Shown here piece by piece: positions 10,760-64,000 of a stretch of DNA of 64,000 bases. The stretch spans positions 28,478,527 through 28,542,526 of the forward strand of contig OX485808.1 of the NCBI GenBank assembly GCA_950295325.1, written 5' to 3'. Below the pieces are notes generated by a model. It was not told the DNA's origin. It saw only the letters and a program-made list of their open reading frames with translations, and did no database searches. The position numbers were made by a program, and so were the translations under genes. Every line of letters starts with the position of its first letter. Position 1 is the stretch's first letter. The DNA comes from Polytrichum commune. Lineage: Eukaryota; Streptophyta; Polytrichopsida; Polytrichales; Polytrichaceae.

Positions 10760-10781
10760 TTTACGAATGCTCGTTCGTAAA
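10760..10781. repeat. 22-nt palindrome, family A (intronic)
   Basis: Left arm TTTACGAATG, centre CT, right arm CGTTCGTAAA. It lies inside the intron 10741-10881. Confidence 0.8.
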
Positions 10782-10833
10782 GTTCACCTCAACTTGTTTT
10801 GGTTTTTTATTGCATTGTTTCTCGTCGTTGATG

Positions 10834-10855
10834 TTTACGAACGCACGTTCGTATA
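10834..10855. repeat. 22-nt palindrome, family A (intronic)
   Basis: Left arm TTTACGAACG, centre CA, right arm CGTTCGTATA; 53 nt after the previous copy in the same intron. Confidence 0.8.
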
Positions 10856-11876
10856 TTCTAACGTATTTTCTTAGATCTCAGATGATGGGTCTGGTCGTCA
10901 ATAGCTTCGTTGACGCTGTCGACGAGGAGGACTTCCAGGTGCACAGGGCGAAGGCGTCCACGATGGACCTGGAGGACATGTCCCTCCCAAGGACGGACAT
11001 CAACATGCCCGTCGACAAGGGCATGCCCGGCTTGGAGACGGACGACGACGAGCCCGTCCCCTCCGCCAACATCGAGGCGATCATCCGCGCCATAGACGTC
11101 ACGCCTCTCCGAATTTTGGCGCTGTCGGGAAATCCATCCGACGTGCAGGGGACTCCGGGTGGATACACCGGATCGTCCGCGGGGACAACCCAAGATGTCC
11201 TCCCCGCGCAAACGTCTGCAGCAGAGGCATTCGGCACTCCCGGGGAATGCTCGACATCGGTGTCGCCCAGGCCAGTCGTGGTTCCCAAGATGGAGAACCT
11301 CGACCTTTTGGACCAACTCTCCCGTCCGTCGTTGGACCACTTCCGCAACACTAGGCGGAAGATGAAGAAGACCCCCTACGTGGAGCTGCCTCCGGGGGCA
11401 ATCATCGAGGTCTCCGATGAGGATGAGGGGGACATGGAGATAATGGTCGAGTTGGGGGTCGACTTCGACAAGAATAAGCGGGTAAAAGAGGAGGCCCTCT
11501 CCGTCGCCGAGCTTAACGTCAAACTCGAGCAAAAGATGAAGGAGGACATGGCGAAGGCTGCCGAGGAGAATGCGAAGAAGATGTTCGAAATTCAGGAGGA
11601 GCTGAGGCAATCCAACGAGAAGACGGACACCATTCTCGCGATGCTCAAGCGGATGCAGAGCTTCTCCGCGCCCCCCCAGCATGCGTATCCCTTCCCAGGA
11701 GGATACCCAGCCCATTACCCCCCGCCAGGCCAGTACCCCCCGCAGGGCCATTTCCCAGGACGACCATCCCACCAACAGGCGCCCCACCCTACTCCTGTTG
11801 GCACTCCTCCGCCCCCAAAAGTTCCCTCGACCACCTCCCACGATGTTGTCGCGGCGGCCATCCAGGAGGACGAGGA

Positions 11877-11898
11877 TTTACGAACGCGTGTTCGTGAA
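11877..11898. repeat. 22-nt palindrome, family A (inside coding sequence)
   Basis: Left arm TTTACGAACG, centre CG, right arm TGTTCGTGAA. It is read through as DLRTRVRES in the surrounding frame, so it was inserted or evolved without breaking the frame. Confidence 0.75.
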
Positions 11899-12252
11899 TC
11901 TTCAGGTCCTGCAGTCCTCACCCCTCCACCTTCAAGGGTAGGACTGCATTCAGAGACTTTGGAGGATTTTTTTACCGTCGTCCCCAGGGTCGTAGACAGA
12001 CAGGGCAATGACTCTGCGCGACACACTGACATGGTCATTGTGGAGGACACGCAGGGGAGCCCCAATGACGCAGCAGGAGTTTAGGGGATGGACGTGGAAG
12101 AGAACCCTGCGGCGAGGATAGAGGATGTTCGGATGGAGGCACTCGACTAGGGCGCCGAGAACGACGACGCGCTGCGGATCCAGCAAACCCAGGACTCTTA
12201 GTCGGAGCGTGAGGCAGAGGCCATGGAGACGGAGGCGGCTGCGGCTGTGGAG

Positions 12253-12274
12253 GTTACGAACGTGCGTTCGTTAA
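12253..12274. repeat. 22-nt palindrome, family A (inside coding sequence)
   Basis: Left arm GTTACGAACG, centre TG, right arm CGTTCGTTAA. In the frame of the decayed polyprotein it reads EVTNVRSLIV. Confidence 0.75.
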
Positions 12275-12360
12275 TCGTTGAGGAGGGACCTGTTGCTCGG
12301 TCCAGCGCCGCTGCCCCTCCCCCCGATGACGAGGTAACTCTCCTCTGAGAATACCATTTT

Positions 12361-12382
12361 TTTACGAACGCGCGTTCGTAAC
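12361..12382. repeat. 22-nt palindrome, family A (intronic)
   Basis: Left arm TTTACGAACG, centre CG, right arm CGTTCGTAAC; the inner 20 nt are perfectly self-complementary. It lies 30 nt downstream of the donor at 12331. Confidence 0.85.
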
Positions 12383-12651
12383 CTCTCTAACATCGTGATG
12401 TTTTTCTCTTCATTGACATCCAATGGCCCGCGAGAGCCCTCTTCAACGATCCCCCTTAGGGCCGACCAGTTTTGTAGGACACGGCATCATGTTGCCTTAG
12501 GAAAATGTGAGACTATCACGTGAGAAATGTAAATATTCAATGGATTAATATATGAGCCTATGTTATCTGCATCGCATTGCTTCAAATTCTCTGCCCTCGA
12601 CCCCTTCTCGTATGTTGTGGATGTTGATGCGCTTGTTCATTCTTGCATACC

Positions 12652-12792
12652 CACCTCATTCGCGAACGCTCGTTCGTGAAAGGGTGCGACCCACTGTCCA
12701 CCTCATTCGCGAACGCTCGTTCGTGAAAGGGTGCAACCCACCGTCCACCTCATTCGCGAATGACCGCTCGTAAATGTACGTGTAGCCACGCT
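12652..12792. repeat. 47-bp tandem repeat x3, each with a family-A palindrome
   Basis: Units start at 12652, 12699 and 12746 with CACCTCATTCGCGAA. Each contains a 22-nt palindrome (12659-12680, 12706-12727, 12753-12774) with centres CT, CT and AC. The first two units are nearly identical; the third has diverged in its right arm (CGCTCGTAAA). Confidence 0.85.
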
Positions 12793-12861
12793 CACGAACG
12801 AGCGCTCGTAAATGATGTGCACCGCCCCCACAGTCTTCATTCACGAACGCTCGTTCGCAAG
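12791..12861. repeat. Two further family-A palindromes
   Basis: 12791-12812 has arms CTCACGAACG and CGCTCGTAAA with centre AG. 12840-12861 has arms TTCACGAACG and CGTTCGCAAG with centre CT. Both are in presumed intron or intergenic sequence before the HAD-like exon. Confidence 0.75.
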
Positions 12862-12992
12862 TGTGCCCTTCAGCACATTTTCCTTGCACTCTCCTCACTT
12901 CCTCGTCTTTTCCCATAATGCATCGTCTTCATTTTCTACGCAAAAATTTCATTATTGGATCATAGCATTAAACTAGTCGTTGTTCATCACAG

Positions 12993-13758
12993 GGCCCCCC
13001 GGAGATAGGTCGCAACCCCTCGACCAGTGGACCTCACACCCGGAACAAGCTTTTCATAGTTTTTGACCTCAACGGGGTTTTGTGTCACACCCAACATATC
13101 CCCAGGGTCCCCACGCATCCCTTCCGTCACCCCAACGAAAGGGACTACGACGGCGAGCTCGACACCCTAATTAACCGCAAGGCTGTCCGCGCCTGTCCCG
13201 GCCTACGGGACTTCCTTCGCGAGGTGGTCGAGTTCGCCCTCGTCGTTGTGTGGAGCTCCATGGTCATGGAGAACACAGAGCCCATCGTGGACTTCTTGTT
13301 CCGTGATCTCCCGAACCCTTGCCTCGTCCTCGGCCAAGAGGACTGCGACGAGCTGCTCGACGAGAAAGGCCAACCGGTGCCCAAGTTTGGCGGTCGAGGC
13401 GGAGGACAACAATTCCTCAAGGTCCTCCGTTCCAGACTCTGGCGAGGCGTCCCCCGTCTGCAAGGGACGCCTCACGGGTGGTGGCCGACTCCCGAGAACA
13501 CCGTCCTCATCGCGACAGCCCCACCAAGAGCGTCTTGAACCCCTGGGCAACGTCATCTTCCCGGACACTTGGACCGGCGATAGGCAAGACACATTTTTGG
13601 TCGATAGGGTAGCCCCCTACCTTAGAAGGCTCGTGCTCCACGCCGGTAGCATCCCATTTTTTGTTAGGTCCAACCCCTTCGGCAATGCGGCACTAAGCCC
13701 CCGCGATAATGTATATAAGAGCATCATGAGGCTCGCCAAAATCAATAAACTGATTTGA
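12993..13758 (+). pseudogene. CTD-phosphatase (FCP1/NIF, HAD)-like protein, frameshifted
   Basis: After an acceptor at 12991-12992 the frame reads NKLFIVFDLNGVLCHTQH, a HAD-type motif I. It lies in the context usual for FCP1/NIF phosphatases, which hydrolyse phosphoserine in protein tails; the family motif is DxDx(T/V). Here the second aspartate is asparagine (DLNGV), so catalysis is doubtful even before the breaks. Motif II is seen as VVVWSSM. Then come LVLGQEDCDELLD and GGGQQFLKVLRS, and PENTVLI leads into motif III. Two apparent single-base losses near 13512 and 13547 shift the frame; the downstream part (NVIFPDTWTGDRQDTFLVD to the TGA at 13756) is in another frame. The neighbours suggest it is part of the same TE cassette as the methyltransferase-like genes. 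Confidence 0.6.
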
Positions 13759-13869
13759 AATGCCTCCATGTCTTTGCTTGTTATCATGTGGTTCACATAT
13801 CTAATGCTTGCTCTATTTTTGGATGTCTTTTGTTGTTGTGATTGTTGTTTTTCTTGTTCTTGCCCATAG

Positions 13870-14845: not shown

Positions 14846-15754
14846 TAGGACGGACTAGTGGGAATAGAAGCGTACTAGTGGGACGGACTCCCCAAATGCG
14901 CTTAGGTGTAGAACATATTAGTGCTTACTTTCTATTCTATTTCAAGTTACTCAAGACATTGATGGTATTTCTATTATAATTGTATTTCAATCATATTGAA
15001 TTCAAACAATTTCCAATCATTCCCCGCATATTTCCCTCCATTCATAACGATTTCTCATTTCATACGCAACTATTTTCATGTATGCTTCATATTTTTGCTC
15101 ACTTTGATGCCTTTATATCTAATAATTGTATCCAAAATTATACATATTTGACTTTTAGGTTGTCATTTCTGGTCCAAATTTGAAAAGTGCGTCCTTAAAT
15201 AGTCTCATAATCAACAAAAAGTCTCCAATTACCGAATATAGTGTTATTTAGAATCACTGGGATCTTGACCAACTATGCCCAAACAACTTCTCGGGCATTG
15301 GTGCAGATTCTCTTCACCCTACCCTTTTGTTTGACATCACAAATTTTCAAGCACTGATGTATTTCGTAATTATCTGCGTCAAAATTTATTATAACTAGCG
15401 ATGTATAATGCAATAATCTTATAATCTATGAATCGTTCTTATCTAACAATTTACTTCGTGGTAGCAGAATGTGGCACATCTTTTAAATAAATAAGAAAAT
15501 AATGCAATTACAACGCACTAATGAGGAATCTATGATCTCATTTTAGCATTTTATTGTTCTGACATGATAAATTGTTTTCCTGAAATTTGTGATTTAATGT
15601 CTTCATCGTAACGAGACAGTGTTGTCTTGCATGTCATGCAAAGAATCTTGGCTGCACTAGTTTGGATTCATGTCGTCCCAGTCCATTGCACATGTGCATA
15701 TATGAATCAATATCTTGGATGAACCCAACCCCCATGCACCCATGTCCTTGTGAA
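14846..15754. other. No gene seen
   Basis: AT-rich sequence without a supportable ORF or repeat structure. A direct repeat, TACTAGTGGGA-like text, occurs near 14850-14885. It leads into the LTR remnant at about 15755. Confidence 0.5.
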
Positions 15755-29882: not shown

Positions 29883-32261
29883 ATGATACCCAGCAGACTA
29901 CCGTTGTCTGACAGTAGAAGGCAGCGATTACGAGATGACAGACTCTGGGTTAGGGAGTTGAAGTGAGCCAGGGAGTGCAATGTTCAGAAATTGCATTGCC
30001 CTTGCATAAATTGTAGGGGGCGTAAGAGACTATTCATACGGAACGTGCGGGAGCACCTCATCCAACACGGTCGACATCCTGATTCACGGATTTGGAGAGG
30101 CCCAGGCGCTAGAGATTCTTCGGATGAAGAGTGGGAACATCAATTCTGGGGACCTATTGAAGCAGATGGTGATGGAGGACATGACGTTGGTGATACAAGT
30201 GCTCCGATTGCACAAAAAACAAATGGGTTGGATGCCACCGTGGACACTTGTGGCATGGTCGAGCAGGCACTACCAACAGTGGACGTTCAGGCATATTCTG
30301 GGGAGCGGCTTGGCGAGGAAGTCAGGGATGCCTTTGGCATTGCTGATGTCGTTCATGAAGAATTCAGGGATGCGGAATTCGGTGACGAAGTAGGGGAAGA
30401 GGAGTGTCGTGATGAGGAACTAGCAGTTGATGTTGATGTTGACAATGGAGACAGTGACCCCCAACTTGACGACAGGGCCCTACAGGATTCACTGGAGCAC
30501 TTATATGATGGGTCTCGTTGCAGCAAGCTTGCGGCCACAGTGTTATTGATGAATTTGTGCACCGTGCACGGAGTGAGCAATCAATGCGCGAACGAGCTCT
30601 TTAGCATTTTGCATCTGCATGTGTTGCCGGAGAACAATACATTGCCGCGATCCCATCATGCCGCAAAGTCCCTTACCGCAAAGTTGGGTTTGACATACAA
30701 CACCATCCATGCATGTGAGCACGGGTGTGTGCTATTCCGGGGACCCCATGAGGATGCACTTCGCTGTCCTAAATGTGGAGGCCGTAGATACCGAGATGAG
30801 GAGCGGCGTTGTTATCCGCTGAAGGTGCTTCGTCACTTTCCCATCATTCCACGGTTGCAGCGCATGTACATGAGTCCGAGCATCTCAAAATTGATGGTAT
30901 GGCATGCAGAGAACCGGAGCAACAAAGACGGAGGGGATGGCTTGGTTAGACACCCCTGTGACTCGAAGGCATGGCGGCATTTTGAGGAAAATGTCGACCC
31001 GAGCTTCACACTTCATCCTCGAAACGTCCATTTCGCTTTGGCAGCCGACGGAGTGAACCCTTACAAGCAAAATCGATCCACATGGTCAACGTGGCCCGTT
31101 CTATTGCTGAATTACAACTTGCCTCCATGGCTAAGCACCAAATTTTTATTTATGATGATGGCTCTATTGATTCCAGGAAAGGAATCTGTGACAGCTGATG
31201 TGTTTGACGTGTACTTAGAGCCTCTTGTGGATGAATTGTTGGAGTTATGGGTTGGAGTGCCTGCTTACGATGTATCAGAAGTTGCAGGCTCGAAGACTTT
31301 CCAATTGCGTGCCATGTTGCTATGGACAATCCATGACTTCCCAGGCTACGGCACCGTTGGCGGTTTTGCTCATCAAGGCTACGTGGCATGTCCTTGCTGT
31401 GGAGAGGATTTAGGCGCAGAGCATTCAACCGAACTTGCTAAGCAAACTTACGGTGGTACTCGACGTTGGCTGCCTGAAGGTCACCCGTACAGGTCACTTG
31501 AAATGAAGGACCACTTCAACGGAGAGATGGAACATCGACCAAAACCAAGGGAAGTGACAGTGGAAGACCAAATTCGACATGCTCTGTAGTGCGAGGCTTG
31601 GAGGGCCGACGGAAATAGGTGGGGTGCTCCTGGAGATCCTTCCAAAGTACATGGTGTGAAACGTCTCAGCATTCTCTTCCGCTTGCCGTATTGGAAGGTC
31701 AGTGACTAGATCCCCATTGATATCTCGTGGAATGACTTAAAAATGACTTTCACTGAACTACATGGGGTACTATCGTAAGTGCTTACTGAGTCACTGCGTA
31801 GTCATACAGACTTTGTAGTGAAGTTGATTTACTCTCAGGAGACTCGGAAATGACTTTTCTCTGTTTGTAATGTTTAGAATCTTCTCATTCGGAACACGTT
31901 GGACGTCATGCACTGCGAGTTGAACCTAGCAAAGAACTTCCTAAAGACCATCGCAGGGAAGAAGGACACCGTAAAAGTTAGAAGAGACTTACAAAGGAGG
32001 AACATTAGACCACACCTGTGGCTAACACCAAACCCACGAAAGGCAGGGAAGATGGTGAAACCACGCGCTTCTTATGTCTTGTCCGATGCAGAATTTGACA
32101 AGTTTGTGAAGTGCATTGAGTCCTTAAAGACGCCTAGTGGTTACTCTTCATACCTTGGGAAATGTCTCCGAAAGAAGAACTTTGGGGGGTTAAAGTCCCA
32201 CGATTACCACACTCTGATGCAGCAAGTAATGCCACTAGCTCTGCGTGGACTGATGGAACCC

Positions 32262-38339: not shown

Positions 38340-39312
38340 TGTCGCAACCCTTGCTAGCCCCCCTTGACAATCTTGCCAATTTTCAATTCTAGCAAAGGTT
38401 ACGAGCGCTAACCATTCGCATTCCGCCATGCTAATGATTAGCTCCTCCTACCCCGGACCTTATAGTTCATAGGAGGGAACCAACCCTCCTACTTTACTTT
38501 CGGGACTCACCCCTTAATCGGTAACCCGTTCCTAGATGTGGACTTCCATCCATGGAAGTCCAATCCCATGTTGATCATCGCATTGCCGGAGCAACACTAC
38601 AACAACCCGAACCATACTAGGCAACTATGGCCTCACAATGGGCCAATGCCCATGGAGGCCTTGCCGTTCGGCCTCGGGTGGGTGAGGCCACACCACCTCA
38701 CCCATATAAGCCTCTAGGACTTCACGCGGGGCCCCTACCCCACCGTCAACCAACCTCTTGTCTCTCTACCAAGAGTTGGGGCCAAGTGGACATTTTCCTT
38801 TAGCTGCTGGGCATAGAACCCCCCAGCAGCTTCAGACCATCATAACTTCCTTGTATGATGTCTGATCATAACAACCAACCACTCCATCTTCATCTACGCT
38901 TCACGTAGATGCCGATGGACTCCTCACTTGCCCCATTCGGGCAAGTATTGAGGAAGTTATGCCTGTTTGAACCTTGGCAGTCCCGGGAATCGCTCCCAGG
39001 CACTGCTGTAACAGGGCGCTGTCCCGGGACAGCGCCCCACTCAAATGGCCATAACTCCTAGCTCACACCTCCGATTGAGGTGTTCTTGAGCTTTCTAGAA
39101 TCACCACGCCATGAGCTACGCATAACTCATGGCCTTACCCTTGTGCCTCCTAGTCTTCGTGGGTGGGAGGCGTTCCCAACGCCCGGGGCCCTCACCCACA
39201 CTAGGATCACTTGGGCCCTCTCACCAACGGCGCCACAAGTCCCGGGTGTCACTCCGGGGTCCCCCTTGTGCCCATGGTGTTTCGGCCACTCCTCATGGAG
39301 AGGTGCGCGACA
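38340..39312 (-). repeat. Right LTR (5' LTR of the minus-strand element)
   Basis: 973 bp, three differences from the left LTR. Carries a perfect 24-nt GC palindrome at 39014-39037 (arms GGGCGCTGTCC and GGACAGCGCCC, centre CG). Confidence 0.95.
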
Positions 39313-40718
39313 AACCCGGACCTCGCACGGCTGTCATGAGAATGTGTCGGGTATTTCGCCGGTTGTGCACGAAAGTGTACAATCCCGCAGATTTTCCATC
39401 ACTTGAAGCACATGTGGCAGAGAGCATGGCGTTATTGGAGATACAATTTCCACCCTCATTTTTTGACATCACGACGCACCTCCCATATCACTTGGCAAAG
39501 GAGCTGGACTTGTGTGGCCTAGTTAGTGCCCGTTGGATGTATCCAGTCGAACGTTTTATGAAAGTGTTGAAGAACCATGTCAGGAACATGGCGCGTCCAG
39601 AGGCTTGCATGGCGGAGGGTTACTTGAAAGATGAATGCATAGGCTTCATTACCGAGTACCTCCACCGATTTGAAGGAACTCAAAGACGTGTATGGGATGA
39701 AGATGAAGAATATGGAGATGCTGAGGAGGTCCTGCAAGGGGCAGGGAAACCGTACGTTATGAGTCCAAAGATGAGAGTTGTAGCCCACCAGTACGTGCTA
39801 TCAAATGCCTCGGCTATGCAGGATCTGTTCAGGTAATTTGGAACTGACCATTGTACGTGTTGGCCATGCTTGAAGTGAATATGGAATCGTTGTCGTGCAA
39901 GAAACATTTGGGGATGCCATGCTTATTGAACCATTGTGTGTCCCAATTTCAATCATATCCTGTGACACTCATTACCATGTTTTTGCAGAGCGTGGAGTTT
40001 GGAAGCAGATGAGAATCGGGGAACTCCTGTTCTAGCAGACTGGATTGAACGCACAGTGCAGGCATCTAATTTAGATTTGCGGAAGTCGGAAGACATGGAC
40101 CGGTTTCTCCTGAGTAAGAGGCCATCACAAAGAGCGACTAGGTATGGCAGAGTACTTGCGTTTGGTAACCGCTTTCGAGTGGACGATGACAGCACCGAAC
40201 ACTTGGTGAGCTACAACTCCGGGGTAGCGTCACTTTTTCAGGAGGTGTCCGAGAATTCCAAGGAATCTTCTGTGAACTACGTGGGAGTATTGAAGGACAT
40301 ACTAGAGCTGGATTATGGTGCTCTGACTATGAAGATAATTCTTATGCGATGTGAGTGGATTAAAACCCAAGACAATCGAGGCAACCCCACATACATCCGC
40401 AACGATGCAGGATTCCTTACAGTGAACTTCCGCCACAAACTCCCTCGCCTGGCAGACCCTTTCATCTTTCCGAGCCAGGCGACACAAGTCTTCTTCTCAG
40501 ATGTTATTGAAAGACCTGGGTGGAAAGTTGTGTTACGGAAAGAGGCACGAGCTAAACGGGAAGTGGTGGAGGTTGCAGACGCATTTATTTGCACATCAAC
40601 GGAGAGTACCGGTTTAAGAGCTCCAGACAGATTGCCCGTTCCTGCAGGCACAGTAAATCTAGTTGGTGCGATCGAATTGTCTGAGGAAGACAATTTGCTA
40701 GCAAATGCAGGGTATTAG

Positions 40719-47266: not shown

Positions 47267-47831
47267 GTGAGCCCAAAATTGATGCCCACATTGGTTGTTA
47301 ACACTTGTAAAACATTACAAGTGGTGTTTTGGTGATTTATGATTATTCACAAAAATATAAAAAGAGTGAAGCTTGAAGAAAGCTTAGTTTGAAGCATTAG
47401 GCTTTTGTGGAGTGGATTTAAGTAGGAGAAGGACAAACCTTGGTAAAGTGTGGTAGGTAGAAAGCCAAGGTTAGTTAAATGTTTGAATTAGGATCCTTGT
47501 TGATCATTTGAGGGAGGAAGGCTTAGGAGATAGGATAAGAGCCTACAAAGTAGGAGGAGATCTTGAGGGCTTATCGTGAGCCTTGAGGGTGCTCATCCCC
47601 TCAAACTCACTATATAATCCCTCATTCTTTCCTCATTCATCATCTCTTTCCTTCGTGCTCCTTGGCACTCCACGTGTTATAAGTGTGGGTGCGTGGGAAG
47701 CAAAATAGGAGCACGTGTGTGTGCATTACCTATCCATGGATACCAAGAACTCATTTTTTGGACTTCATATGAATTTTTGAGAGCCAAAAAACCGAGACTA
47801 TGTCCAAACTTCCAAACTTCCAAACTTCGAG
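47267..47831 (+). repeat. Possible 3' LTR of the plus-strand gypsy element
   Basis: Starts TGTGAGCCCAAAATTG some 60 nt after the pol stop. Contains a TATA-like box (ACTATATAATCC, about 47609-47620) and pyrimidine-rich transcript-start-like text. No second copy or CA end can be shown because the next repeat begins at 47832, so this is tentative. Confidence 0.4.
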
Positions 47832-47998
47832 ATTAAGGAGTGTAAGAAGACATAGTATAGACTTGGCTAAGTTGCGTATATTCCAACGATAGATTGGAAT
47901 CATACATTGTGTTACAAAGAAAGAAATCTCTACATGTCATTATAAACTTCTCCATTCGGGCTAGGACGAAATTGAAGGGTTGAGGCTTTTTGGTGACA
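47832..47998 (-). repeat. 167-bp inverted repeat, left copy
   Basis: Outer end ATTAAGGAGTGTAAGAAGAC, inner end TTTTTGGTGACA. The reverse complement matches 56173-56339 over its whole 167 bp with about ten differences. Confidence 0.9.
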
Positions 47999-48037: not shown

Positions 48038-48122
48038 GTTTGGGTCGACCGACCCAAACCCCAACCCCATCTTGGCCGGCTGGAGGTTGACCATGAGAAG
48101 GTTTGGATCGGTCGACCCAAAC
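48038..48122. repeat. Two family-C palindromes
   Basis: 48038-48059: arms GTTTGGGTCG and CGACCCAAAC, centre AC. 48101-48122: arms GTTTGGATCG and CGACCCAAAC, centre GT. They lie 40 nt inside the inverted repeat, in the leader of the transposase gene. Confidence 0.9.
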
Positions 48123-48311
48123 CCCCTCCCAAAATGTTTTTTGGAACTTGCGCAAAATATTAGGAATTCACATTGTAGTTGTGTTGCAAATGTCTTTATC
48201 CTCGGTGTCCCCATTTATCATGATGTCTTGCATTTTTCGATATTTGATTCTTTCGAACCCTTACATGGTGTGCATGTTTGTTGAGGTTTCATGTGCATGT
48301 GTGTAGGCGAA

Positions 48312-51300
48312 ATGGAGGGAGCTAGTGGAAGAGGGGATTCCTTCTCTGAAGACATGGGCAACTCCCATTCTTCGTCTGGGAATGACCTAGACATTGTCGG
48401 GGAGGATAGTTTTGGTGACAGTACAGATGAAGGTTATTTGGGGAGTCCTTCGCCATCTGCCCCTTCTTGCCCCACTGTGGAATGTGTTGGGCTTTCACGA
48501 GCTTCATGGGTGAATTTGGATGGGGTACTTGTTAATGACAGTGGAGTTGCTGTGGCGGAGGGTATATGTCGTAACACACATCTACAAGATTGCATTGATG
48601 AAAACCCCCTTGGCACCGAGGACGTTGGAGTTGTTATATTGGAATCACTCGTACATTCCGAAGTTAATCCAACTCATAGGTTCTCGTTGCGAAGGTGGCC
48701 GTTGAGGAATGTGACAATTGATGGGGTTAATTTGTATGAGCATGAGCGACGACACATCCAAATCCAACAGGAGCTCCAAGCAAACATTCGGCCACGCAAA
48801 GGCCTACGGAAGTACGAAACATTGGCACGTCCTACTCCGTCTGCAAATGAGTGTAAACGTCAAAGGTTGCTCTGTGAGGAGTCTATTAGAGAAGTTGCCA
48901 CAAAGGATTGTTGTGTACATCGTTGTTGCCAATTGTTCCCAAGGGATAAATTGAAGGCCATCCGCGAGGAAATGTGGCTTGGAGATTTCCGTCTAAGATC
49001 CACCAAAAAACTTGATGTCCATAGGGCGATACATGTGAACGGAGCGGGTCGAAAGGTCATCACCCTTGAGAGCATAGACGTGTGTTGTACGGCATGGTAC
49101 ACCATTCACGGTGTGTCGAAAGCGGAATTTTATAGACAAGCCGCGTATGCCAAGGAAGGACGCGGGTCCTGTCACCATGGGAATACGGGCTTAAAGAAAC
49201 CAAGGGAAGCAACGAGACAAGCAATAGCCACTCTGGCAACCATCATTGTCCCCCTTGCCGATGCAATGCCGCACAAAACACGCACACTCTCAACCGGTGA
49301 AAAGGTTGTGGAGAAGGTTCTTCCTACAGGCACGAAATGGAAAGACATATTGTTGGACGTAAACGCAGTTGGCGAGAAGGCTGGGTTGGACCCTATTTCG
49401 TTGTCGAAACTGAGTGCAATAAAAAAATCTCACTTTAGCGAATACATCACAAAAAGACGAGGCGACAAATTTGCCCGTTGTTCCAAATGCGAGAAGTTGA
49501 AACGCCTTCGAGATGCACACACGATGGGGACAGAGTCCTATGCCGCACATCAAATGAACTATTTCAAGCATGTGAACATGCAAGAGGCACACCGTAATGA
49601 TTACTACACAAATAGAGCTTTGTCCATCTCTAGGCCTTTGGAGGTCCTTACAATCATCCATGACAAAATGGACCATGCCAAAACAGCCTCACCATGTTTT
49701 GCAAATCGAATCAAAGCCACGGACGGCCTTTTTAAGCTTCCTGTATCGGTTACAGGTGATTTCAATAACAATTGCATTGCATTACCTAAACACAAATTTG
49801 TGCTTTTAGGTTTGTACTTGGGGCCATAGATGTACACCATGTGAATTTTTTGGTGTTATAGTTGAATATTAAACCATTGGGTTGGCTTTGCAGGGATGAT
49901 TGCACATGGACACGGTGATGTCAAGTATGCTCATTATGCTCTTGATTTGTATCCGGCGGATTCAAACCACACGATAGGGTCATTTGCAAAGCTTTTACGT
50001 GATTTGGAGAAACCGCCGTCCTATTCATCAAGATTGTTATTTGAAAACTCGGGATCAACACCTCTATATGAAGCGGTCTTGGATGGAAGAGATGTATGCG
50101 TGCACTCATTGCCGGAGCCACCAAGTGAAGATGTGATAGCCAAGAATTTGCCCCCAACTCTGCGTGTCCAATTGGACAATTGTGCGAAGGACAATAAAAG
50201 TAGATATGTTTTTGCATATTGGTCGTTGTTGGTTGCGAAAGGCATTTTCAAGGAGGTTTTTGTGTCCTTTCTATTGGTAGGCCACACACACGACGATATC
50301 GATGCATCTTTTGGGCGTTGGAGCATGAAGTTGCGCGAGGAGGATTTTCCAACAATCCCATTGTTGATGAAGTCGTACATGGATTTGGAGAACATTCCCG
50401 TCATCCCCCATATGATCGAGGAGGTTCCCGACTTCAAGGTATTTATAGAACCGTATATTCGAAGCGGAGCTCACCGATTGATCGGACATACGAAGGCACA
50501 ACAATTTCGGTTCTACGTGCGTGACGATGGTGTCCCCGCCATGCAATACAAGTTGTTGTGCACGTCACAAGACTGGAGCCCGCCGGAGGGTCTCCTTGTA
50601 TGGCGTGTTGATGGGGAGGGAAGGATGATGTTGCCTGACGGAGAGCCTAAGCCTTGCAAACCAGTACCCATGAAGAATTTGGAGGACATTTGTAAAGGCA
50701 TATCAGGCTTCATACAATATTGGGAGAGTTTGAGGGTAACGGATGTTGGTGGATCGTGTTGGCTTCGTTACGGAAGTTGGATACAATATTGGACACGTGT
50801 TCGTGGCGCTTTGGCAAACCTTCATCAAGATACACCCCTTACTTTAAGGCATGGGTTTTGGCCACAAACACGTGTCAATGTACAAGCTTCGGAGGCTAGT
50901 CTTTTGGGAAATGGAGAGGTTCGAGAGGAGTTTGATGTGGATGACCATTACGTGGGGCCTGCTAGTAGTCATCCGCCACCATCTTTCCGCATTGCAATGG
51001 ATTGTCATGAAGGTTATATGCTCATTTTGCGTCCTGGAGATGAGACATATGCAAAGCCAGTGTGGGTGGCAAGAGCTTTGTCCAATCCAAATTTTGTAAC
51101 TTCCAGCCCTCATTTTCGACAAATACAAGTAGAGTACTACCGACCGACAGCACGGAATGAAGATGTTGTTCGGCATTATACAGGCTGGGATACAAACCAA
51201 CACTTTCGGTGGAAGGTGGATTCTGAGCATGGTCCATCTTGGGTAGATACAGATTCCATATTCATAGCATGGAAACCACGGAAAAATCATAGTGGATCAG

Positions 51301-51380
51301 TGTCCATCCCTCAAAAGTACATAACTTTTGCAAAAGACAACCTTGCTCGGATCGTAGAAGAAGCAACCCACGTTGAATGA
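48312..51380 (+). CDS. DUF7869-type DDE transposase-like protein, two exons, apparently intact
   Basis: Exon 1 48312-49755, intron 49756-49893 (GTGATT...TTTGCAG), exon 2 49894-51380; about 976 residues with no premature stop. ATG 48312 is chosen (MEGASGRGDSFSED); an in-frame ATG at 48291 is possible. An acidic N-terminus precedes FSLRRWPLRNVTIDGVNLYE. A Cys/His cluster follows (TKDCCVHRCCQLFPRDKLKA), then VHGNTG-like text HHGNTGLKKPRE and a CX2C pair (CSKCEKLKRLRD). The putative catalytic sites are HDKMDHAKTA (Asp), VQLDNCAKDNKSRY (Asp) and LVGHTHDDIDASFGRW (Asp/Glu), the hallmark words of DUF7869. I infer an RNase H-fold transposase; the family is poorly characterised. The C-terminus holds PKPVWVARALSNPNF. 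Flanked by 167-bp inverted repeats; a second, broken copy lies at 55214. Confidence 0.72.
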
Positions 51381-54288: not shown

Positions 54289-55070
54289 TTTACGGACGCG
54301 CGTCCGTAAACCTTAAACATATTGGCTCATTGAACCTTTATTTGTTTGAGCCAATACTCATGTACGTTGAGGTTTATGGATGCGTGTCACAACGACAATA
54401 TATTACCATGGAAGTTTACGGACGCGCGTCCGTAAACCGTAAACCCCTTGGCACGTTGGACATTGTATTTAGGCTAGTAATGATGTCCACAGAGGTGTAT
54501 TCCTTCGAGCACTATCTTTATGCTAGGAATGAGGTCCACAGAGGTTTACGGACGTGCGTCCGTGAACCTGGAAACCTTTGTTACCATAATGTTGACCATG
54601 TGCCATGTAGACTGAGTCTGCACTGAGACTGTACGGTCATGAAGGGTTGGGAGCTCGCATCCCTTAGCCTACATCACCCTATGTCATAGTATAATATTTT
54701 GACATTGATTAAACATTTTAGGAAGCGCGTATGGCCATATTCAATCCTCTTCAAATGTCATGAGTCGTCAGGGCTGTGTATACATGGCCGTGTTTGGAGG
54801 ACGTCTTGCTTCCTTGAACCTCTGTCTAGGACTACATTGATGTTTGTCATACGGATGTTTACGGACGCGCGTCCGTATACCTATGTTGTGGTTGAGCATG
54901 ATACTGAACTCTGTGCACGAGCCGATTAACGGATGCGCGTCCATAAACCAGTGATGTTTTTGTTGCCTCCACCTTTCCGCTCCTATGAACACATAAATGT
55001 ATCCGTATGCGCGTGTGCTTGCGTTGCTGATGTTGTTACATGGAGGTATACGGACGCACGTTCGTATACC
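54289..55070. repeat. Array of six family-B palindromes
   Basis: Copies at 54289-54310 and 54415-54436 (both perfect; arms TTTACGGACG and CGTCCGTAAA, centre CG), 54545-54566 (centre TG), 54858-54879 (centre CG), 54926-54947 (centre CG, arms mutated) and 55045-55070 (extended arms, core GTATACGGACG / CGTTCGTATAC, centre CA). A worn seventh copy is near 54372. They are irregularly spaced in the leader of the second DUF7869-type copy. Confidence 0.9.
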
Positions 55071-55213
55071 AATACTAGCTTTGTTTCCAAGCCATGAAAG
55101 CCACTAGTGTTCACATTGTATTTCATTGACAATAATAAGCGTTAGGGCTATCCATGACATTTAATGAATGGGATATTTTGACACACTCTTCATTGGGCTT
55201 TCTTGTAGTGGCC

Positions 55214-56172
55214 ATGGATTCCAACGTCGGTGATAGTGGGGTTGATTTTTCTTCGGAAGCGTCAAGCTATGCTAGCGAGTTTGAAGTTGTCGTGGAACAA
55301 GATACTACAATTGGTGTCGCCAATGTAGAGGATGAATTCCTTCCACCATGTGAGGGTTATTCGCGGGAGTAGTGGATTGATCTTGATGTCGTCCTACTCA
55401 ATGGATGTGGCGTCCCCGTGGCTGATGGTGTTTGTCGGAACTCGAATCCTACGGATTGTATTGATGCAAATCCCCTTGGGGAAGAAGATGTGGGGGTGTG
55501 CATTTTGAATTCCTTACATCCGTTGGAAGTGCCTACTGGTTGGAGATTCTCTCTTCGTCGATGGCTGTTGCGTAGTGTTCTTCATGATGGTGTTAGCTTG
55601 TGGAATCATTCCCGCCGTTTTAATCAAATGCAATCGGCTTTGTTCGCCACAATGCGCCCTAGAATAGGTCGGCGTAAATATGATTCCGTTCGTTTGCCTC
55701 GTGAACCCACGCAACGTCGTCGAGATCAAACATTGGGAGACGCATCTATTAGGTCCGTAGCAACAAAGAATTGTTGTGCAAAGAGATGTTGCCAACTATT
55801 TCCCCGTGACAAAATCAAATCTTTGAGACAAGAGATGTGGCTCATGGACTTTCGTATGCGATATGCAAAGAAACTTGAAGTCCATCGCAACATGCACCTT
55901 GATGCCGAAGGTCGTAAGGTTGTGACCATGGAGAATGTAGAGGTATGTTGCAAGGCATGGTACATTGTACATGCAGTTTCAAAGGCAGATTTTTATAGGT
56001 TCCGGAATTATTCGATGCAAGGACGCCGTTCTCGGTTCCATGGCAACTCTAGCACAAAGAAGCCTAGGGAGGTAACACTCCAAGCGGCTGCAACACTATC
56101 AACCATCATTATGCCATTGGCAGATGCGATGCCACACAAGATGCGGACTCTACCGTCGGGGGAAAAGGTTGT
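55214..56172 (+). pseudogene. Truncated second DUF7869-type copy
   Basis: ATG 55214 (MDSNVGDSGVDFSSEASS). The frame matches the N-terminal 40 percent of the 48312 gene: LDVVLLNGCGVPVADGVCRN, NPLGEEDVGVCILNSL, FSLRRWLLRSVLHDGVSLWN, VATKNCCAKRCCQLFPRDKI and PLADAMPHKMRTLPSGEKVV. One in-frame TAG at 55370-55372 aligns with a Ser codon of copy 1. At 56172 the homology stops abruptly where the right 167-bp inverted repeat begins; the entire catalytic half is missing. Protein identity to copy 1 is roughly half to two thirds by eye, so the two are not recent duplicates. Confidence 0.8.
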
Positions 56173-56339
56173 TGTCACCAAAAAGCCTCCACCCTTCAAT
56201 TTCGTCCTAGCCCGAATGGAGAAGTTTATAATGATATGTAGAGATTTCTCTCTTGGTAACACAATGTATGATTCCAATCTATCGTTGGAATATACTCAAC
56301 TTAGTCAAGTCTATACTATGTCTTCTTACACCCCTTAAT
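56173..56339 (+). repeat. 167-bp inverted repeat, right copy
   Basis: Begins TGTCACCAAAAAGCC and ends ACACCCCTTAAT. See the left copy at 47832. It is translated as the tail of the truncated ORF (stop 56336-56338) only by accident. Confidence 0.9.
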
Positions 56340-57470
56340 ATCGGCTAATGTCACATCCTTGTACTTCTCTAAAGTCCACCCGGCCGCTTTGGCCACGCAT
56401 GCCTTCAAAGATATCCCTCTTATAAAGCGAGTCCTTGCCGTCGACTCCACACTATTACATGAGTTCTCGCTTATTGATTCCATGAATTACACAAGTTTAA
56501 GTATTGATAAATATTTGTCACTTATTGTAGTTTTTTCCTCACGCTTCAACCACTATATTGGTTTAATGAACTAATTGTTATCCCTAATGGAACCAAACAA
56601 ACTTCCTTTGTTCTCCTAGACTTTACTAGCTAATAGTGTAACTTTCCCATTACTTCTCGGAATGTCATGAAATTTTATCTATAACTAAGGAGACAAAGCA
56701 AAAAACATCTCACCAATTTGTGAGCCTATCCCATTTTCTGTCCGACAGTTATGACCATTTTAGTGTGTCAGTCTACCCAGATTTCAGAATGTCATAACTT
56801 CCTTTCACAGGCTCCAAAGAACTTCAAATTTTGGGAGCAATCACAAAAACTAATTGTTTATGACCCCCTGAAATTTCAAACTATTTTCATATTTCTGCCA
56901 AAACGTTATGGCCTTTTTAGTCTGCAACTCTTTAAAATACTTCAGAATGATATATCTCCTTCTCATCTACTCGGAATGACTTGAAATTTGTACTACAACT
57001 AGGAAACCTAAGAACAAAACATCCCTCAAAATTTCATGCGTTTCCAAGCCTTTGTCTAGGAGTTATACCTATTTCAACTTGAAAATGTAGGCAAAGTTCA
57101 GAATGTCATAACTGCTGCTCTAGTACTCCAAACATCCTCAGATTTTGACCATGTTCATATAAACAAGTTGTTTACTAACCCTCTAAATTTCAACGAAGTA
57201 TCTTCTTCTTCTCGGAAGTTATGCCCCTTACAACCTAGACTACTCAAGAAATACCGAGGGAAGCTATCTTATGAGCGATGAGCAGTGAGCGGTGAGCGGT
57301 GAGCAGTAACACATAAGCAATGAGCAGTAACATATGAGCAATGATTCCAAACTTAGTAAAGACACACGGGTTTAGGGTACACAACCAAAATTTTGACAAA
57401 TTAATTGCATATTTTCAATTGTAAATTGCCAATATTTTAAATGAAGCACAAGTGAAAGGGCCCTATTTCC
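56340..57470. other. Decayed coding scrap and degenerate repeats
   Basis: On the minus strand 56345-56440 reads RFIRGISLKACVAKAAGWTL then EKYKDVTLA, coding-like but unassigned. From 56640 to 57240 a phrase of the type AATGTCATAACT...CTCCAAA/CTCGGAATG...CTTCAAATTTTG recurs about every 170-180 bp, a decayed tandem array similar in style to that at 7030-7390. No gene. Confidence 0.4.
57271..57305. repeat. Heptamer microsatellite GTGAGCR x5
   Basis: Units ATGAGCG, ATGAGCA, GTGAGCG, GTGAGCG, GTGAGCA. Reverse complement of the type seen at 10272-10299. Confidence 0.8.
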
Positions 57471-57472
57471 AT

Positions 57473-58140: not shown

Positions 58141-61100
58141 CTATTCACACTCTACGATACCAGCAAGTTCAAGTAGTCGCATGACCTCGTTATAGGTATA
58201 TGTAGGTGCATGAATGAACTTGTCACTCTCGTAATCCACCTTGCACAAAAATCTAAACACATAATAAAGATGTTTACAATACACCCATTTTCCTTTCTTT
58301 CCCAATGCATGAGAGGACATTTTCGTGAAATCCGGGCATGTGCAATGCGGGATGTCGCCAATTGTGACATGGTAGGTGATATCCTGCTTGGAGACAATGT
58401 TGATTATCACTCCAAAGCCCGGATATGGAATGGCAGTGACCCCAACCACATAGTAACCCTCCATGAGTCCGGCGCTCTCCCATTTGTTTTTGTGATCCGC
58501 TAGCGGTGCTGTTGGATTACGACGCACTGTCTTCCCAAACCTGAATGTAGGGTGGGCGTCCGGGTTTGGTGGCATAGAAAAATGCGAGCGAGGGATGGGA
58601 AGAGTTGCGATTGATGAAAGCCTACGACGAGGGGACAATGCCTCCCTCTGCTGTAGTTGAAATCCAGCATCTTCAAGTGCCAAAACCTCCTTTCGCGATA
58701 GATTGGTACCTATCTTCACCGGCCACGTGTTGGGTACTATAGGCCAGTCCAACACATGTTTCTTCTTATTGCCACTCACACAACGTTTGATGTCGTCAGG
58801 GCAAAACCAAAATTCATACTCCACATTGTTGGGAGAGCGAAATTCCTTCCTGAGTCCTTTGTATGTTGGAGCAGGTGTGCCATGTTTCCCAGTCCCGACT
58901 TTGGCATTGCACATAGTCCCTGTGATGGCCTGCAGTGCCCAACATCGTTTGGCTTAGTTGGGTGGTAATCTTGCAATGTGCCAGTTGGAAGCAAGACAAT
59001 CAGTCTCTAACACGGATGTAGTATGAGCCACACCATGAATTGCAGAACTTAACGATTCCTCTATGCGTTGACGAGTTGCTCGGGTGTTCGGACGGGGAAT
59101 GGAATAGTTCACTTTGTCGGGTCGATGAGAGTCACAATCAGCACCCGGTGGTAGGTTGAGTTTGCGTTTGGTGGAACCAAAGAGCTCTGACCCTTCCAAT
59201 GCACAATCTCTAGTGTTGACGTCTTCTGCCCCTGGATAAGACTTCATGGCATCGGCCAACATTTTTGGATCTCCACATCTTGCAGCCGCTTTGAGTTTCA
59301 AGGATGCCGAATCAAGACCTTTACCATCAGACGCCCCTTTCAACCATGTCCGGTAATTTGCAATTTGCATGAAAGCACGGATCATGTCGTCCACTGTAGC
59401 TTCATATAAACAAGTCATCTTGTTGCCGGACTGTTGGAGCCATTTGTTGTGTACAGTCTCTGCAAGGTTGCATGTTGGCATTTTCGCACGCTCTTCTATT
59501 GTCATATCCTATGAACAACACACAAATACAAGGATAAGACAAACATAAGATAGATTATATATTTAGGTTTGGGTCGTTCAACCCAAAATGGCTGCCACGT
59601 TTGGGTCGAACGACCCAAACTGTTTGCGTAGTTTGGGTCGTTCGACCCAAACTATTTGTTGTTTGTTGTGTACAATCTCTGCAAGGTTGCATGTTGGCAT
59701 TCCCGTACGCTCTTCTATTGTCATATCCTATGAACAATACAGAAAGACAAAGATAAGAAAAACATAAGATATATTACATTGAATAATGAAGTTTGATATG
59801 TACAAGTAGCATATGGCCACCCCATTGTCTCTAACGAAAGTGCCAAAATCCCAACCACTCTGAAAGGCCAAGGATGCCTTCCTCGGAGGCAGCTCCAGAT
59901 GACAACCACCAAGAACGAATCACATGGTACTTGGTCTCAGCGTCGTCCATTGTTTTCGCGTCTTTGTAATCCTTGCATATTTGTTTGTGTTGAAATTGCA
60001 AGGATGGTTTGATATACTTGTAAGCTCACGTGCAACCATGGGTAGACTTGGATCACCATCCCCGTAAATCGCCCTCACCGCATTCCAATTAGCTTGAGCA
60101 CTATCAGCCATAAACCCTATGAAGTTTACGTATGGTACACCATTTTCTGCCATGACAGCATTCAAATTTTCCCAAAAGAGAATTTGTGCTGCACCATCTT
60201 CAGATTGCATGTCACAACACGCAATAGTCAACACTTTACAATATCGACTGTCGTACACATGGCAAGCCATGGTCGTCCAGTCCTTCAAACGTTTGACATG
60301 GTCAAACATAAATCATGAATTCTCCATATCCCCACCGACTTGCATCCTCTTCACAAGCTCCACACCACTACCTGGAAGGTCTACAGACATCTTAAAAACA
60401 AACACTTTGTCCTTTGACTGCCCTGGGAACCGACTACCATGGACGAATTTGAAAGCAGAGTGGTCTTTGAGCGCCATAATACTATCCATAGTTCCCATTC
60501 CACTACGCAAAAAACGCTTTGATCCAGATACAAAGTTACGACAATTTGGAGACGCAACAGTGCTGAATTTGTCCATGACGACCTCTAGGGATGAACCAAC
60601 CAAGTGATGGCCTTCGACATTTGCGGGAGATTTGAGAAGGTAATCGGCCAAGAATTGTTTGCTCGCCGCCATAACTATGGCTGAATTTTTTGCTGTGGGT
60701 GTTTTCAATACTTCATTTGCAACTCATTGGTATGCCATGTCCAATGATTCACGGCATGTGCCATTGGCCACAGGGTGATCATGTACACCAAGATGAATGC
60801 AAGCCCTGGACATTCCAACGGATGTGGAATGGATGTATATGATTTGAGCATTACACAAAGTAATGCACACAGGTGTGGAACGACATACCTTACACTCGAC
60901 AGTGGACTTAGTAGGGGGAACAACACCCACAACAAATGGGATAGGAGTTGAACCGGCCCATTCAGTGTTGTTCCGGAGGCCCCCATTGCGATTCATGTAA
61001 TCACAGTAGTCATTATGACATTGGAGATGACCAGCACAAGTAGAGCGCCGGAAGGACAGTCCAAAGTCATTTTGGATATTCGTGGTTTTGGTGGTGCACC

Positions 61101-61897
61101 AAGGGTGACCGTCGCACATCTTGTCCATGCCGTCCATTGAGCGACCATACGTACTTGGAGCTTTGAGTGCCACAAGAGGCAAGAGAAACAAAATATCACC
61201 ATTAAAAGAAGATGGTAAGTACTTGACTTCACGAACATCTATACTGTCAAAATCAATGGATGCAAGATCGGACTTTGATCTTTTTCTTGACTTTGTCAGC
61301 TTCAAGGCATCAACCATAGTCAACCCTGTAGATGAAGGTGAAGGGTGTAGTGGAGGACGTTGAGAAGGTGAGATTTTGGGAAACCACCTTCTTGTACATA
61401 AGACCGCAAGGGGATTTGGCTACATGTATAGGAAGTTGGGAAGGACTAGAATGAACACTTCTAAATGGAAATGACGATGTGTTTGAAAGATCAACAGATG
61501 CACAAATGTCATCTTCTGAATCTGATAGCACAAACACACTATCATCAAGGGGTTCCACCTTAACAGGTGCGATAGAGGGAATTTGAACTGTGGATGTACC
61601 GGATTCGTTTGTCAAAATGACAGTTGAAGCTTGCATCTGAGACTCAGAAAGTCCTATCATCCTAAATGAACCAGGTCCTAAGATCCACATAAAACCAACA
61701 TCAGTTCTATTTTTTGGAACCAAAATCGTTTCATACACCTCTCCATCTGCAGAGTACATCTCATGCTCTAAATACATGGTTCCTATCTGGAGGTTGAATC
61801 TCAAACTAAGTAAATCCTCTGAAACACTCACATGACCATCATCTTGGAGTGGCAAGATGAAGGGAACAAAAGATCCATAAGCTCTAATGGTAGCCAT
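58141..61897 (-). pseudogene. SWIM zinc-finger transposase (MULE-like), decayed
   Basis: Minus-strand gene starting at ATG 61897 (MATIRAYGSFVPFILPLQDD). A basic/acidic N-terminus is followed at 61323-60724 by a Cys/His-rich part (DKMCDGHPWCTTKT, CAGHLQCHNDYCDYMNR) and SMGVHDHPV-like LGVHDHPVANG. The core (60708-59920) contains DYLLKSPANVEGHHL, RLKDWTTMACHVYDSRYC and the acidic site NFIGFMADSAQANWNAVRAI. Then, frameshifted, HVIRSWWLSSGAASEEGIL. The 3' exon begins at 59508 (DMTIEERAKMPTCNLAETVH). The end holds a SWIM finger (HCTCPDFTKMSSHALGKKGK, then VYCKHLYYVF), CxCx(n)CxH, as in MULE and related transposases. In-frame TGA 60724-60726 and 60313-60315 and TAA 58954-58956 look like Trp and Gln codons mutated. 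The junction near 61387-61325 is an intron or frameshift, unresolved. Confidence 0.7.
59444..59777. repeat. 115-bp duplication flanking a triple family-C palindrome
   Basis: Copies 59444-59558 and 59663-59777 share TTGTTGTGTACA, GCAAGGTTGCATGTTGGCAT and CTCTTCTATTGTCATATCC, i.e. the acceptor and first codons of the last transposase exon. Between them are three palindromes with arms GTTTGGGTCG and CGACCCAAAC: 59567-59588 (right arm worn, centre TT), 59599-59620 (centre AA), 59631-59652 (centre TT). Confidence 0.9.
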
Positions 61898-62419
61898 AGA
61901 AAATCAAAAGAACATATGAACAACACATCACAAAAATATGAGGTGAATGTTGGTTTTGTATAGAGTTGTGTGAGGAAATGAATGGAAATGAAAACGTATG
62001 ATACAATAATGGATGGAGATGAAAGCGTGTGATACATAGCATCTAATAATACAGAAGTGGACATAACACAATAATAGTCAGAGAATATTTACGAGCAAGA
62101 TATACACAAAATGGCGTCAAATACTAAAAGTATTGGAAGAAAACAAAAATATATATGTGTGGACTGACGTAGATGTAGAAAGAATTAAAATTGGTTGGAA
62201 AAATAAATTATTGCTTATTATGAATAGAACAAAGTAGGTGTCAAAAAATTTTGGCGGATATAACAAAAATAAACACATAATGACAAACGCGTCGAAATAT
62301 CTCGCTCATTGAACGCCAATTACAACATGTGATCGTAATATACGCCGGATTTTGTGAGATAGATACATTGGAAGAATAAATGATAGTACCTGATAGAAAA
62401 CATATCATAGACACCAACG
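61898..62419. promoter_or_regulatory. Divergent promoter region
   Basis: AT-rich spacer between the minus-strand SWIM transposase start (61897) and the plus-strand basic-protein start (62420). No ORF supported; presumed to hold both promoters. Confidence 0.4.
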
Positions 62420-62700
62420 ATGGTGGACGATGTAGAGAGAACACCCGTGAGGCCGAAGAGAAGACGTAGGAAAGCTTTGTATTTCACTTCCGAGAAAAAG
62501 AGGTTCAGACTGAGTGTGGGAAAGAAGAATGCAAATAAGAAAGGGAAAAGAAACTTGTTGAGTACGGTAGAAGAAACTGTGAAGACACTGGATTTTGATG
62601 CAATGGAGGATGATGAAGGTGCAAAGAGCAAAGAAGATATAGATGATCGTATATCAGAATCCGAATTGAAGACAGGTTCAAAGAAGACGACAAACAAAAA
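62420..62700 (+). CDS. Small basic nuclear-type protein, first exon
   Basis: ATG 62420 opens a 94-codon exon ending in a strong donor (AAAAAG then GTAAGT at 62701). The protein is very basic at the start (VDDVERTPVRPKRRRRKALY), with a nuclear-signal-like RPKRRRRK and a second lysine cluster (GKKNANKKGKRN). It turns acidic in the middle (DFDAMEDDEGAKSKEDIDDR) and ends lysine-rich. It is transcribed divergently from the SWIM transposase, which suggests it is the accessory gene of that element. No further exons could be recognised downstream and no family is recognised. Confidence 0.4.
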
Positions 62701-63573
62701 GGTAAGTCAGTTCAACGTTCACATAATTTGATAGTGCATAAGTTGTAAGTTAGGACGGAGAACCTTGTACGTTCACTCACATATCATGTAGTAGCAATTT
62801 ATAGAGGTTATAAATTGGAGAGGAAAAAACCTATACGTTAATGCACATGGTATATAACAAAAATTTAGGAAGGCTAGAAGTCAGGAGGAGAACGTTCAGG
62901 GTTAATAAGAGCAACTTAGGAGGCGAGAAGTTTGGAGATAAAACCCTATACGTTAACGCACATGGTTTGGAAGAGCAACTTAGGAGGCAAAAAGTTGGGA
63001 GGTAAAACCCTGTGCGTTAACGCACATGGTTTGGAAGAGCAACTTAGGAGGCAAAAAGTTGGGAGGTAAAACGACTAGGAGAGCCTAAAAGTAAACAAAT
63101 ATCTATTGTATGAATTTAAATTGATCTTCAGAGCGTAGGAACAAAAAAACCATTCAAAACGGGGTTAGAATGCAAGAAATGAGAAATATGTCTATTCAAG
63201 TATTCATGGAATACGTTATAGGAGCTAGAAAATGACACAAAATAGCATAATTTTTTTTTTGCCCCGAAACCCAAAATCTACGAGGTGGCCCAAAACAAGG
63301 AAATAGATAGAAGAATAAGAAAAGAAAATGATTTCAAACCAAAACAAAATATAAGAAGATTTTGTAGCTACGGAGATTTAGATAATATAGCATATTTGTT
63401 TATGTTTTTTTGGACCCCATTAGCATTTTTTCCAGATTTTACAAGTTTTGGCAAATCTACCAATTCCAGACAAATTCAAATTCAAATTCAAAAAAAAAAG
63501 TTTTTAGCAAATTCATGTCTCGGCCCTGTGCGATTAACGCACAGGCCTTATGCACTAACGCACAGTGGCCTCA
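62701..63573. repeat. Tandem units of about 60 bp with family-D palindromes
   Basis: Around 62930-63070 a unit GGAAGAGCAACTTAGGAGG...AAAACCC..ACGTTAACGCACATGG is repeated twice and partly a third time. Each carries a palindrome centred on GCGTTAACGC: 63005-63032 is near-perfect over 28 nt, with worn versions near 62943-62970 and 62826-62850. The rest (63080-63520) is A-rich without a gene. Confidence 0.8.
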
Positions 63574-63672
63574 AAGTTGCCAGCGCAGGGTCTACTTGCC
63601 TAGCTAGAGGCTTCACAAAGTTGGGCAAGTAGACCCTGTGCGTTAACGCACAGGGTCTGCGCTGGCAACTTT
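63521..63672. repeat. Compound hairpin with a perfect 28-nt palindrome
   Basis: 63631-63658 is a perfect palindrome (half-site AGACCCTGTGCGTT). Around it AAAGTTGCCAGCGCAG (63574-63589) pairs with CTGCGCTGGCAACTTT (63657-63672), and CAGGGTCTACTTGCC (63586-63600) pairs with GGCAAGTAGACCCTG (63624-63638). A worn family-D copy lies at 63524-63545. Confidence 0.9.
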
Positions 63673-63890
63673 CTAGCGGCTATGCGGGGCACGAAGAGCC
63701 ACGCTAAATATGGCCGCAGGGACGAGTAGTATAAATTGCCACACCTTCAAAGCATTCAGTCTTTTTTCTCTCATCTATCGGACCGGAGCTCGTCGCTGCA
63801 AGCTCTCTCATCTACAGGTGTAGTACAAGGTTTGTTTGTACTTTCGTGATGACTGGGTAATTGCGCATAATTAGGCGTAAATTGCGGGTA

Positions 63891-64000
63891 GTTTGGGTCG
63901 GTCGACCCAAACTGTCTGCCTGGTTTGGGTCGCTCGACCCAAACTGTCCGTCTAGTTTGGGTCGCTCGACCCAAACTGTGAGCATGGTTTGGGTCGTTCG
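63891..64000. repeat. Array of four family-C palindromes
   Basis: 63891-63912 (centre GT), 63923-63944 (CT), 63955-63976 (CT) and 63987 onward (TT, cut by the window end). Arms are GTTTGGGTCG and CGACCCAAAC in all; the spacing is exactly 32 nt, separated by 10-nt linkers. Confidence 0.95.

Follow-up and report, generated by a model that had tools for sequence, protein, structure and literature searches.

Families of 22-nt palindromes whose arms match protein lineages of a multi-copy ParB-type gene in Polytrichum commune

We analysed a 64,000-nucleotide (nt) stretch of the Polytrichum commune genome (hereafter the window; contig OX485808.1, C6 in our numbering, positions 28,478,527-28,542,526, within the 408-Mb assembly GCA_950295325.1 of 64 contigs), which holds part of a multi-copy ParB-type gene, here called gene A, and three families of 22-nt palindromes (A, B and C), each with two 10-nt arms around a two-base centre. 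Gene A lies at 10.3-13.5 kb and has eight A sites in its two probable introns, while C sites lie in the leader of one DUF7869 gene copy, B sites in the leader of a second, and further C sites at 59.6 and 63.9 kb (Table 1). The statement of the first-pass annotation that the sites lie mainly in introns and leaders held, but not for two A copies (11877 and 12253), which stand where the relatives of gene A have coding exon.

Table 1. Genes and palindromic sites of the window
Feature	Position	Strand	Centre	Remarks
Gene A methyltransferase-like exon, 3' part	10306..10740	+		86% identity to P0124; upstream exons missing from window
Gene A probable intron, two A sites	10741..10881	+		GT...AG borders
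A palindrome	10760..10781		CT	
A palindrome	10834..10855		CA	
Gene A linker exon	10882..12333	+		Relatives P0098-P0117; window copy with stops absent from relatives, frame ends 12084
Exonic A palindrome	11877..11898		CG	Reads LRTxVR, as relatives do here with R, H, S, I, A or L for x
Exonic A palindrome	12253..12274		TG	Reads TNxRS; exons of relatives have A, E or D for x
Gene A probable intron, six A sites	12334..12992	+		GT...AG borders
A palindrome	12361..12382		CG	
A palindrome	12659..12680		CT	47-nt tandem repeat
A palindrome	12706..12727		CT	47-nt tandem repeat
Decayed A palindrome	12753..12774		AC	
A palindrome	12791..12812		AG	
A palindrome	12840..12861		CT	
Gene A NIF-type phosphatase exon	12993..13538	+		Pfam NIF E 6.1e-07, 29.7 bits (cut-off 21.8)
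C palindrome	48038..48059		AC	Leader of DUF7869 gene copy 1
C palindrome	48101..48122		GT	One changed arm base
DUF7869 gene copy 1, two open frames	48285..51380	+		Pfam DUF7869 E 2.2e-41 in second frame; 97 relatives
B palindrome	54289..54310		CG	Leader of DUF7869 gene copy 2
B palindrome	54415..54436		CG	
B palindrome	54545..54566		TG	
B palindrome	54858..54879		CG	
Decayed B palindrome	54926..54947		CG	
B palindrome	55047..55068		CA	
DUF7869 gene copy 2, truncated at 56172	55154..56172	+		59% identity to copy 1 over 268 residues; P0042 89%
Decayed C palindrome	59567..59588		TT	
C palindrome	59599..59620		AA	
C palindrome	59631..59652		TT	
C palindrome	63891..63912		GT	Upstream of gene starting beyond window
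C palindrome	63923..63944		CT	
C palindrome	63955..63976		CT	
C palindrome	63987..64000		TT	Cut by window end; completed, with its centre, by adjoining DNA

Perfect 10-nt arms 2 nt apart were found 16 times in the window (mean 0.1, maximum 1 in 10 Markov controls) and palindromes with 9 or 10 arm pairs 31 times (2.8, maximum 4), which confirmed the geometry first proposed for these sites. Six of the perfect palindromes (32462, 32937, 38540, 39015, 43225 and 43700) are located inside three copies of one larger repeat, and the palindromes of 32-43 kb were dropped as independent sites because all belong to this triplicated repeat; of the remaining ten, six belong to family C and two to family B, and single palindromes stand at 514 and 63634. 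The 8-nt half-site TTGGGTCG was paired into a palindrome six times, and in the ten controls no half-site was so paired more than once. The ten A copies counted earlier were all present (10760 to 12861), the six B copies were five good ones and the decayed copy at 54926, and the nine C copies stand if the decayed one at 59567 and the one cut by the window end at 63987 are included. The centres vary as had been described, and the arms are constant in the good C units but not in family A, in which the inner bases are common, the outer bases are variable and the best copies keep 9 of 10 pairs. Across the five good C units at 59.6 and 63.9 kb no arm column varied, and centre and spacer varied in 9 of their 12 columns (p 8e-6); with the decayed sixth unit, the varying columns were 2 of 20 in the arms versus 10 of 12 in centre and spacer (p 6e-5). 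Because flanks, spacers and centres diverge while the arms stay, families A, B and C are not explained solely as parts of larger duplicated repeats. The C step is 32 nt in the window and 34-39, 45-48, 57, 64 or 78 nt elsewhere, and a helical phasing of the sites (32 nt being about three turns) was dropped for this reason. An Rfam search gave no match.

The first probable intron of gene A is located where the frames of its relatives end in YAAMV and resume at MLGLVVN. A protein search with the frame 10306-12084 returned 47 relatives, mostly from the ena and jgi collections, with open frames running into introns, and the upstream ParB-type exon was reached by a search with P0143 as query. Gene A and its relatives, the best-resolved of the carrier genes, encode a protein with two domains suggested by fold models, one ParB-like and one amino-methyltransferase-like without the catalytic motif, and with a linker and an NIF-type phosphatase; PDB sequence searches gave a best E of 0.27, and NCBIfam gave no match. 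The catalytic motif [DNS]PP[YFW] was present in 0 of the 24 proteins having the VWLW strand, and an active methyltransferase was rejected on the absence of this DPPY-type motif. Copy number suggests that these genes are mobile elements. No protein relatives were confirmed in viral_contigs or genome_contigs, the exact C pattern occurred in neither collection, and the A/B pattern was absent from viral_contigs. TGAGCGG-type tandem repeats were observed on opposite strands at 57255-57344 and at 10266-10314, the second at the 5' cut of gene A.

In the tails of the relatives' frames, the A palindrome reads LRTxVR, YERxFV or TNxRS according to frame, and the tail of P0134 has all three. Among 40 tails (917 residues) from these relatives and from ones found later we counted 34 palindrome peptides of A/B, C and F types in 24 tails and none in 16 (F being a further arm described below), compared with a mean of 0.06 and a maximum of 2 after shuffling of residues; the patterns for this count were loosened after part of the tails had been seen, decayed forms (e.g. 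in P0123, P0129 and P0131) were left out, and P0146, with two further sites, was missed. The centre residue was always compatible with a free NN (LRTxVR 9/9, TNxRS 8/8, YERxFV 8/8 with only S, P, T or A, C and F peptides 9/9). B-specific peptides were absent from the 40 tails, the frame LRTxVR being unable to separate A from B. Flanks and centre change between relatives while the arms persist in all three reading frames, indicating that the nucleic acid, as DNA or RNA, is conserved and not the protein.

We also found that the arm type matches the protein lineage, which goes beyond the observation of the first-pass annotation. Read-throughs of relatives gave A in P0146 and P0147, and C in P0148, P0149 and P0150 (FGSxDPN, VWVDRPK, LGRST). 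The peptide LRPRGRK, present in the read-throughs of P0140 and P0145, predicted a further arm, F (TTTACGGCCG), and this arm, derived from peptides alone, had 27 copies in the genome (control 0), with CG as the centre in 25 of 27. At 30 C-lineage loci of the home assembly (the best 30 of 89 scored places) we counted 303 C sites, allowing one mismatch, whereas arms A, B and F were absent; all loci had C both before and after the exon, the upstream number ranging from 4 to 11 and the downstream number from 2 to 8, at regular steps. Six A-lineage loci, hand-picked from 86 scored places, together had 43 A sites, and the other arms were absent from them. Because the copies of one lineage are closely related, the 36 loci are not independent cases. 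The upstream exon was 72-81% identical among members of one arm class; A against the F-type relative gave 47-48% (arms differing at 2 of 10 bases) and C against the others 33-38% (arms differing at 4-5 bases), the F-type row being represented by P0143, whose read-through is too short for a site and whose 69% identical relative P0145 shows LRPRGRK. The gene order at the C-lineage locus L062 is ParB-type exon, C sites, methyltransferase-like exon, C sites and linker exon, with one C site inside the open frame of the linker exon (3537) and one just beyond the frame end (3606); gene A is arranged likewise, and its linker exon has the exonic A sites in its final third. At another locus (L014, 1501-2771), seventeen C sites form a satellite-like array with 78-79 nt steps and drifting centres (AG, AT, AC).

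Across the home assembly the C arm had 9,231 perfect copies and the reversed pattern none. The spacing was exactly 2 nt in 264/264 perfect arm pairs (241/241 C, 23/23 A; gaps of 0-12 searched) within 249 kb made up of the window and 44 loci, many of which were chosen because they contain such sites. Over 22 sites, 21 arm changes were one-sided and 3 symmetric. This fixed spacing, the free centre and the mostly one-sided changes support the earlier suggestion of a site for a dimeric protein. Halves at a fixed distance, a free middle, independent changes of the halves, many copies and private arms together suggest that a dimeric protein encoded by the element reads the sites. In our view each palindrome is probably a pair of half-sites for a dimer that binds DNA in a sequence-specific manner, and the ParB-like/methyltransferase-like fusion of the element itself is the best candidate for this protein. 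Each of two subunits would read one 10-nt arm and leave the two middle bases unread, and the abundance of a private arm in the leaders, introns and some exons of each lineage would let the protein load only on relatives of its own element. The likely purpose would be to guard or mark its own chromatin against silencing, like VANC, which binds its motif and removes DNA methylation, for VANDAL transposons, perhaps by loading and spreading in ParB style.

The well-placed sites are all probably transcribed and often lie 15-20 nt 3' of a 5' splice site, which would fit RNA hairpins in introns, leaders and exons that act on splicing, silencing or translation. However, the loop-forming centre is free, arm changes are seldom symmetric, a plus-strand G-U pair is left in only 8 of the 21 one-sided changes, and the arm sequence is kept beyond mere pairing, so that we regard hairpins as quite improbable. 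The first-pass annotation had also considered recombinase crossover or cleavage sites with a 2-nt overlap, to which self-spreading palindromic insertions may be added, and the very high copy number, the variable 2-nt centre and the site numbers differing between copies of one gene would fit such sites. This proposal gained no support and is the most improbable of those weighed here: the sites keep their intron and exon positions between lineages with different arms, extra copies are tandem repeats that include the spacers (steps 32, 39 and 45-48), and no recombinase was recognised among 28 Pfam-scanned proteins, which covered part of the open reading frames (ORFs).

The sites are also carried by other genes. 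Copies 1 and 2 of the DUF7869 gene have C and B, respectively, in their leaders and are 59% identical, and two metagenome contig sizes (17,575 and 19,915) recur for DUF7869 and the ParB-type protein, so both genes may share contigs, as judged by equal size only. These observations could suit a transposase-like DUF7869 protein as the reader, with sites that regulate or assemble transposition like the TnpA sites of CACTA elements. We consider this unlikely, since the sites are spread across introns and exons of the ParB-type gene and are not known at element ends, and A, B or C palindrome peptides occurred in none of the 97 DUF7869 relatives, whose frames cover little leader. The nearest named relative among the matches listed was a DUF7869 protein of Physcomitrium patens (36% identical), and a literature search for DUF7869 was without match. 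A 171-nt inverted repeat (47828-47998 and 56173-56343, 95% complementary) has its second copy abutting the truncated copy 2. The C array of 59.4-59.8 kb, flanked by a 118-nt duplication (59443-59560 and 59662-59779, 91% alike), is by our own reading within an intron of a MULE-like gene, for which Pfam gave only SWIM at E 0.042, and behind the C array at the window end we read a second methyltransferase-like stretch, NGRVVDLTCSTGAS, in the gene past the window (L061, ORF about 3358-3816). That C is common to unrelated genes (ParB-type, DUF7869 and MULE-like) might indicate sites of a host transcription or chromatin factor adopted by several mobile elements, and elsewhere the window holds an AACGGTT palindrome that resembles a plant Myb site. 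In contrast, lineages of one gene in one genome use distinct arms, unmixed in the 36 loci, which makes a host factor distinctly unlikely.

The presumed element-encoded reader resembles several known systems. Bacterial ParB, Noc and KorB proteins have palindromic sites, with CTP-dependent loading and spreading from the site. The candidate protein would share with them the fold of a ParB-like N-domain, as modelled, and it likewise has several palindromic sites in or beside its gene, but it differs in being encoded by a eukaryotic multi-copy gene, in its 22-nt site with a free centre and in its methyltransferase-like fusion; DGQHS presumably stands at the place of the ParB arginine motif. En/Spm-type CACTA transposons have many short subterminal sites for their element-encoded TnpA. 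Gene A, which probably encodes a protein that would have its numerous short sites within the same element, would be similar, whereas here the sites run through introns and exons and the carrier gene is not CACTA. In Arabidopsis VANDAL transposons, VANC motifs lie in introns and upstream regions, are family-specific, grow in tandem and occur also in an unrelated transposon (PMC5735166); VANC anti-silencing proteins and VANDAL motif arrays are also the subject of PMC10398659. VANC is the nearest worked-out case. The likeness covers short lineage-specific motifs that are numerous in the introns and upstream parts of multi-copy genes, growth by tandem repeats, site numbers that differ from copy to copy and a motif present also in an unrelated transposon. 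Unlike there, the motif here has 22 nt, is palindromic and leaves its centre free, part of the sites fall in coding sequence, and the candidate protein combines a ParB-like with a methyltransferase-like part; Pfam reported neither of the VANC domains (DUF1985 and DUF287) in gene A or eight relatives, the scanned sequences being partial genes. Dnmt3-bearing retrotransposons of charophytes and dinoflagellates carry C5-cytosine enzymes discussed in relation to silencing (PMC5890265), and likewise have a methyltransferase domain on mobile elements of algae, but the modelled fold here is amino-methyltransferase-like, DPPY is absent, and a ParB-like part and palindromes of its own accompany it. By modelled fold, ParB-type proteins are the nearest. 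By analogy the system would work like VANC and ParB-parS, and we claim membership in neither.

Further, we tentatively raise the possibility of a eukaryotic parS-like system, in which a fusion of a ParB-type domain and a dead methyltransferase would be encoded by mobile elements, sit on thousands of lineage-specific palindromes along their introns and exons, and mark and protect their chromatin in trans, protein and site would co-evolve private specificities, and unrelated elements (DUF7869, MULE-like) would share or exploit them. No published description of such a system was found in titles and abstract openings, among which subscription journals were thinly covered. If true, transposons would have a second, differently built way to recognise their own DNA, by means of a bacterial partition-type protein, one genome would offer several private DNA addresses (A, B, C and F), each paired with a protein lineage, and the switching of DNA specificity and the escape from silencing would become directly testable.

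Other features were also observed in the window. A further palindrome type, CCCTGTGCGTTAACGCACAGGG with variants, is present in about five copies at 62828-63660, upstream of a probable TATA box near 63730. Palindromes of AAAACGGTTRTAACCGTTTT, whose half-site resembles a plant Myb (mitotic) site, lie at 514-535 and 2906-2927. CACTA-type genes are located at 29967-31589 and 39126-39836 (Transposase_21 E 5.3e-65; DUF4218 E 6.2e-32).

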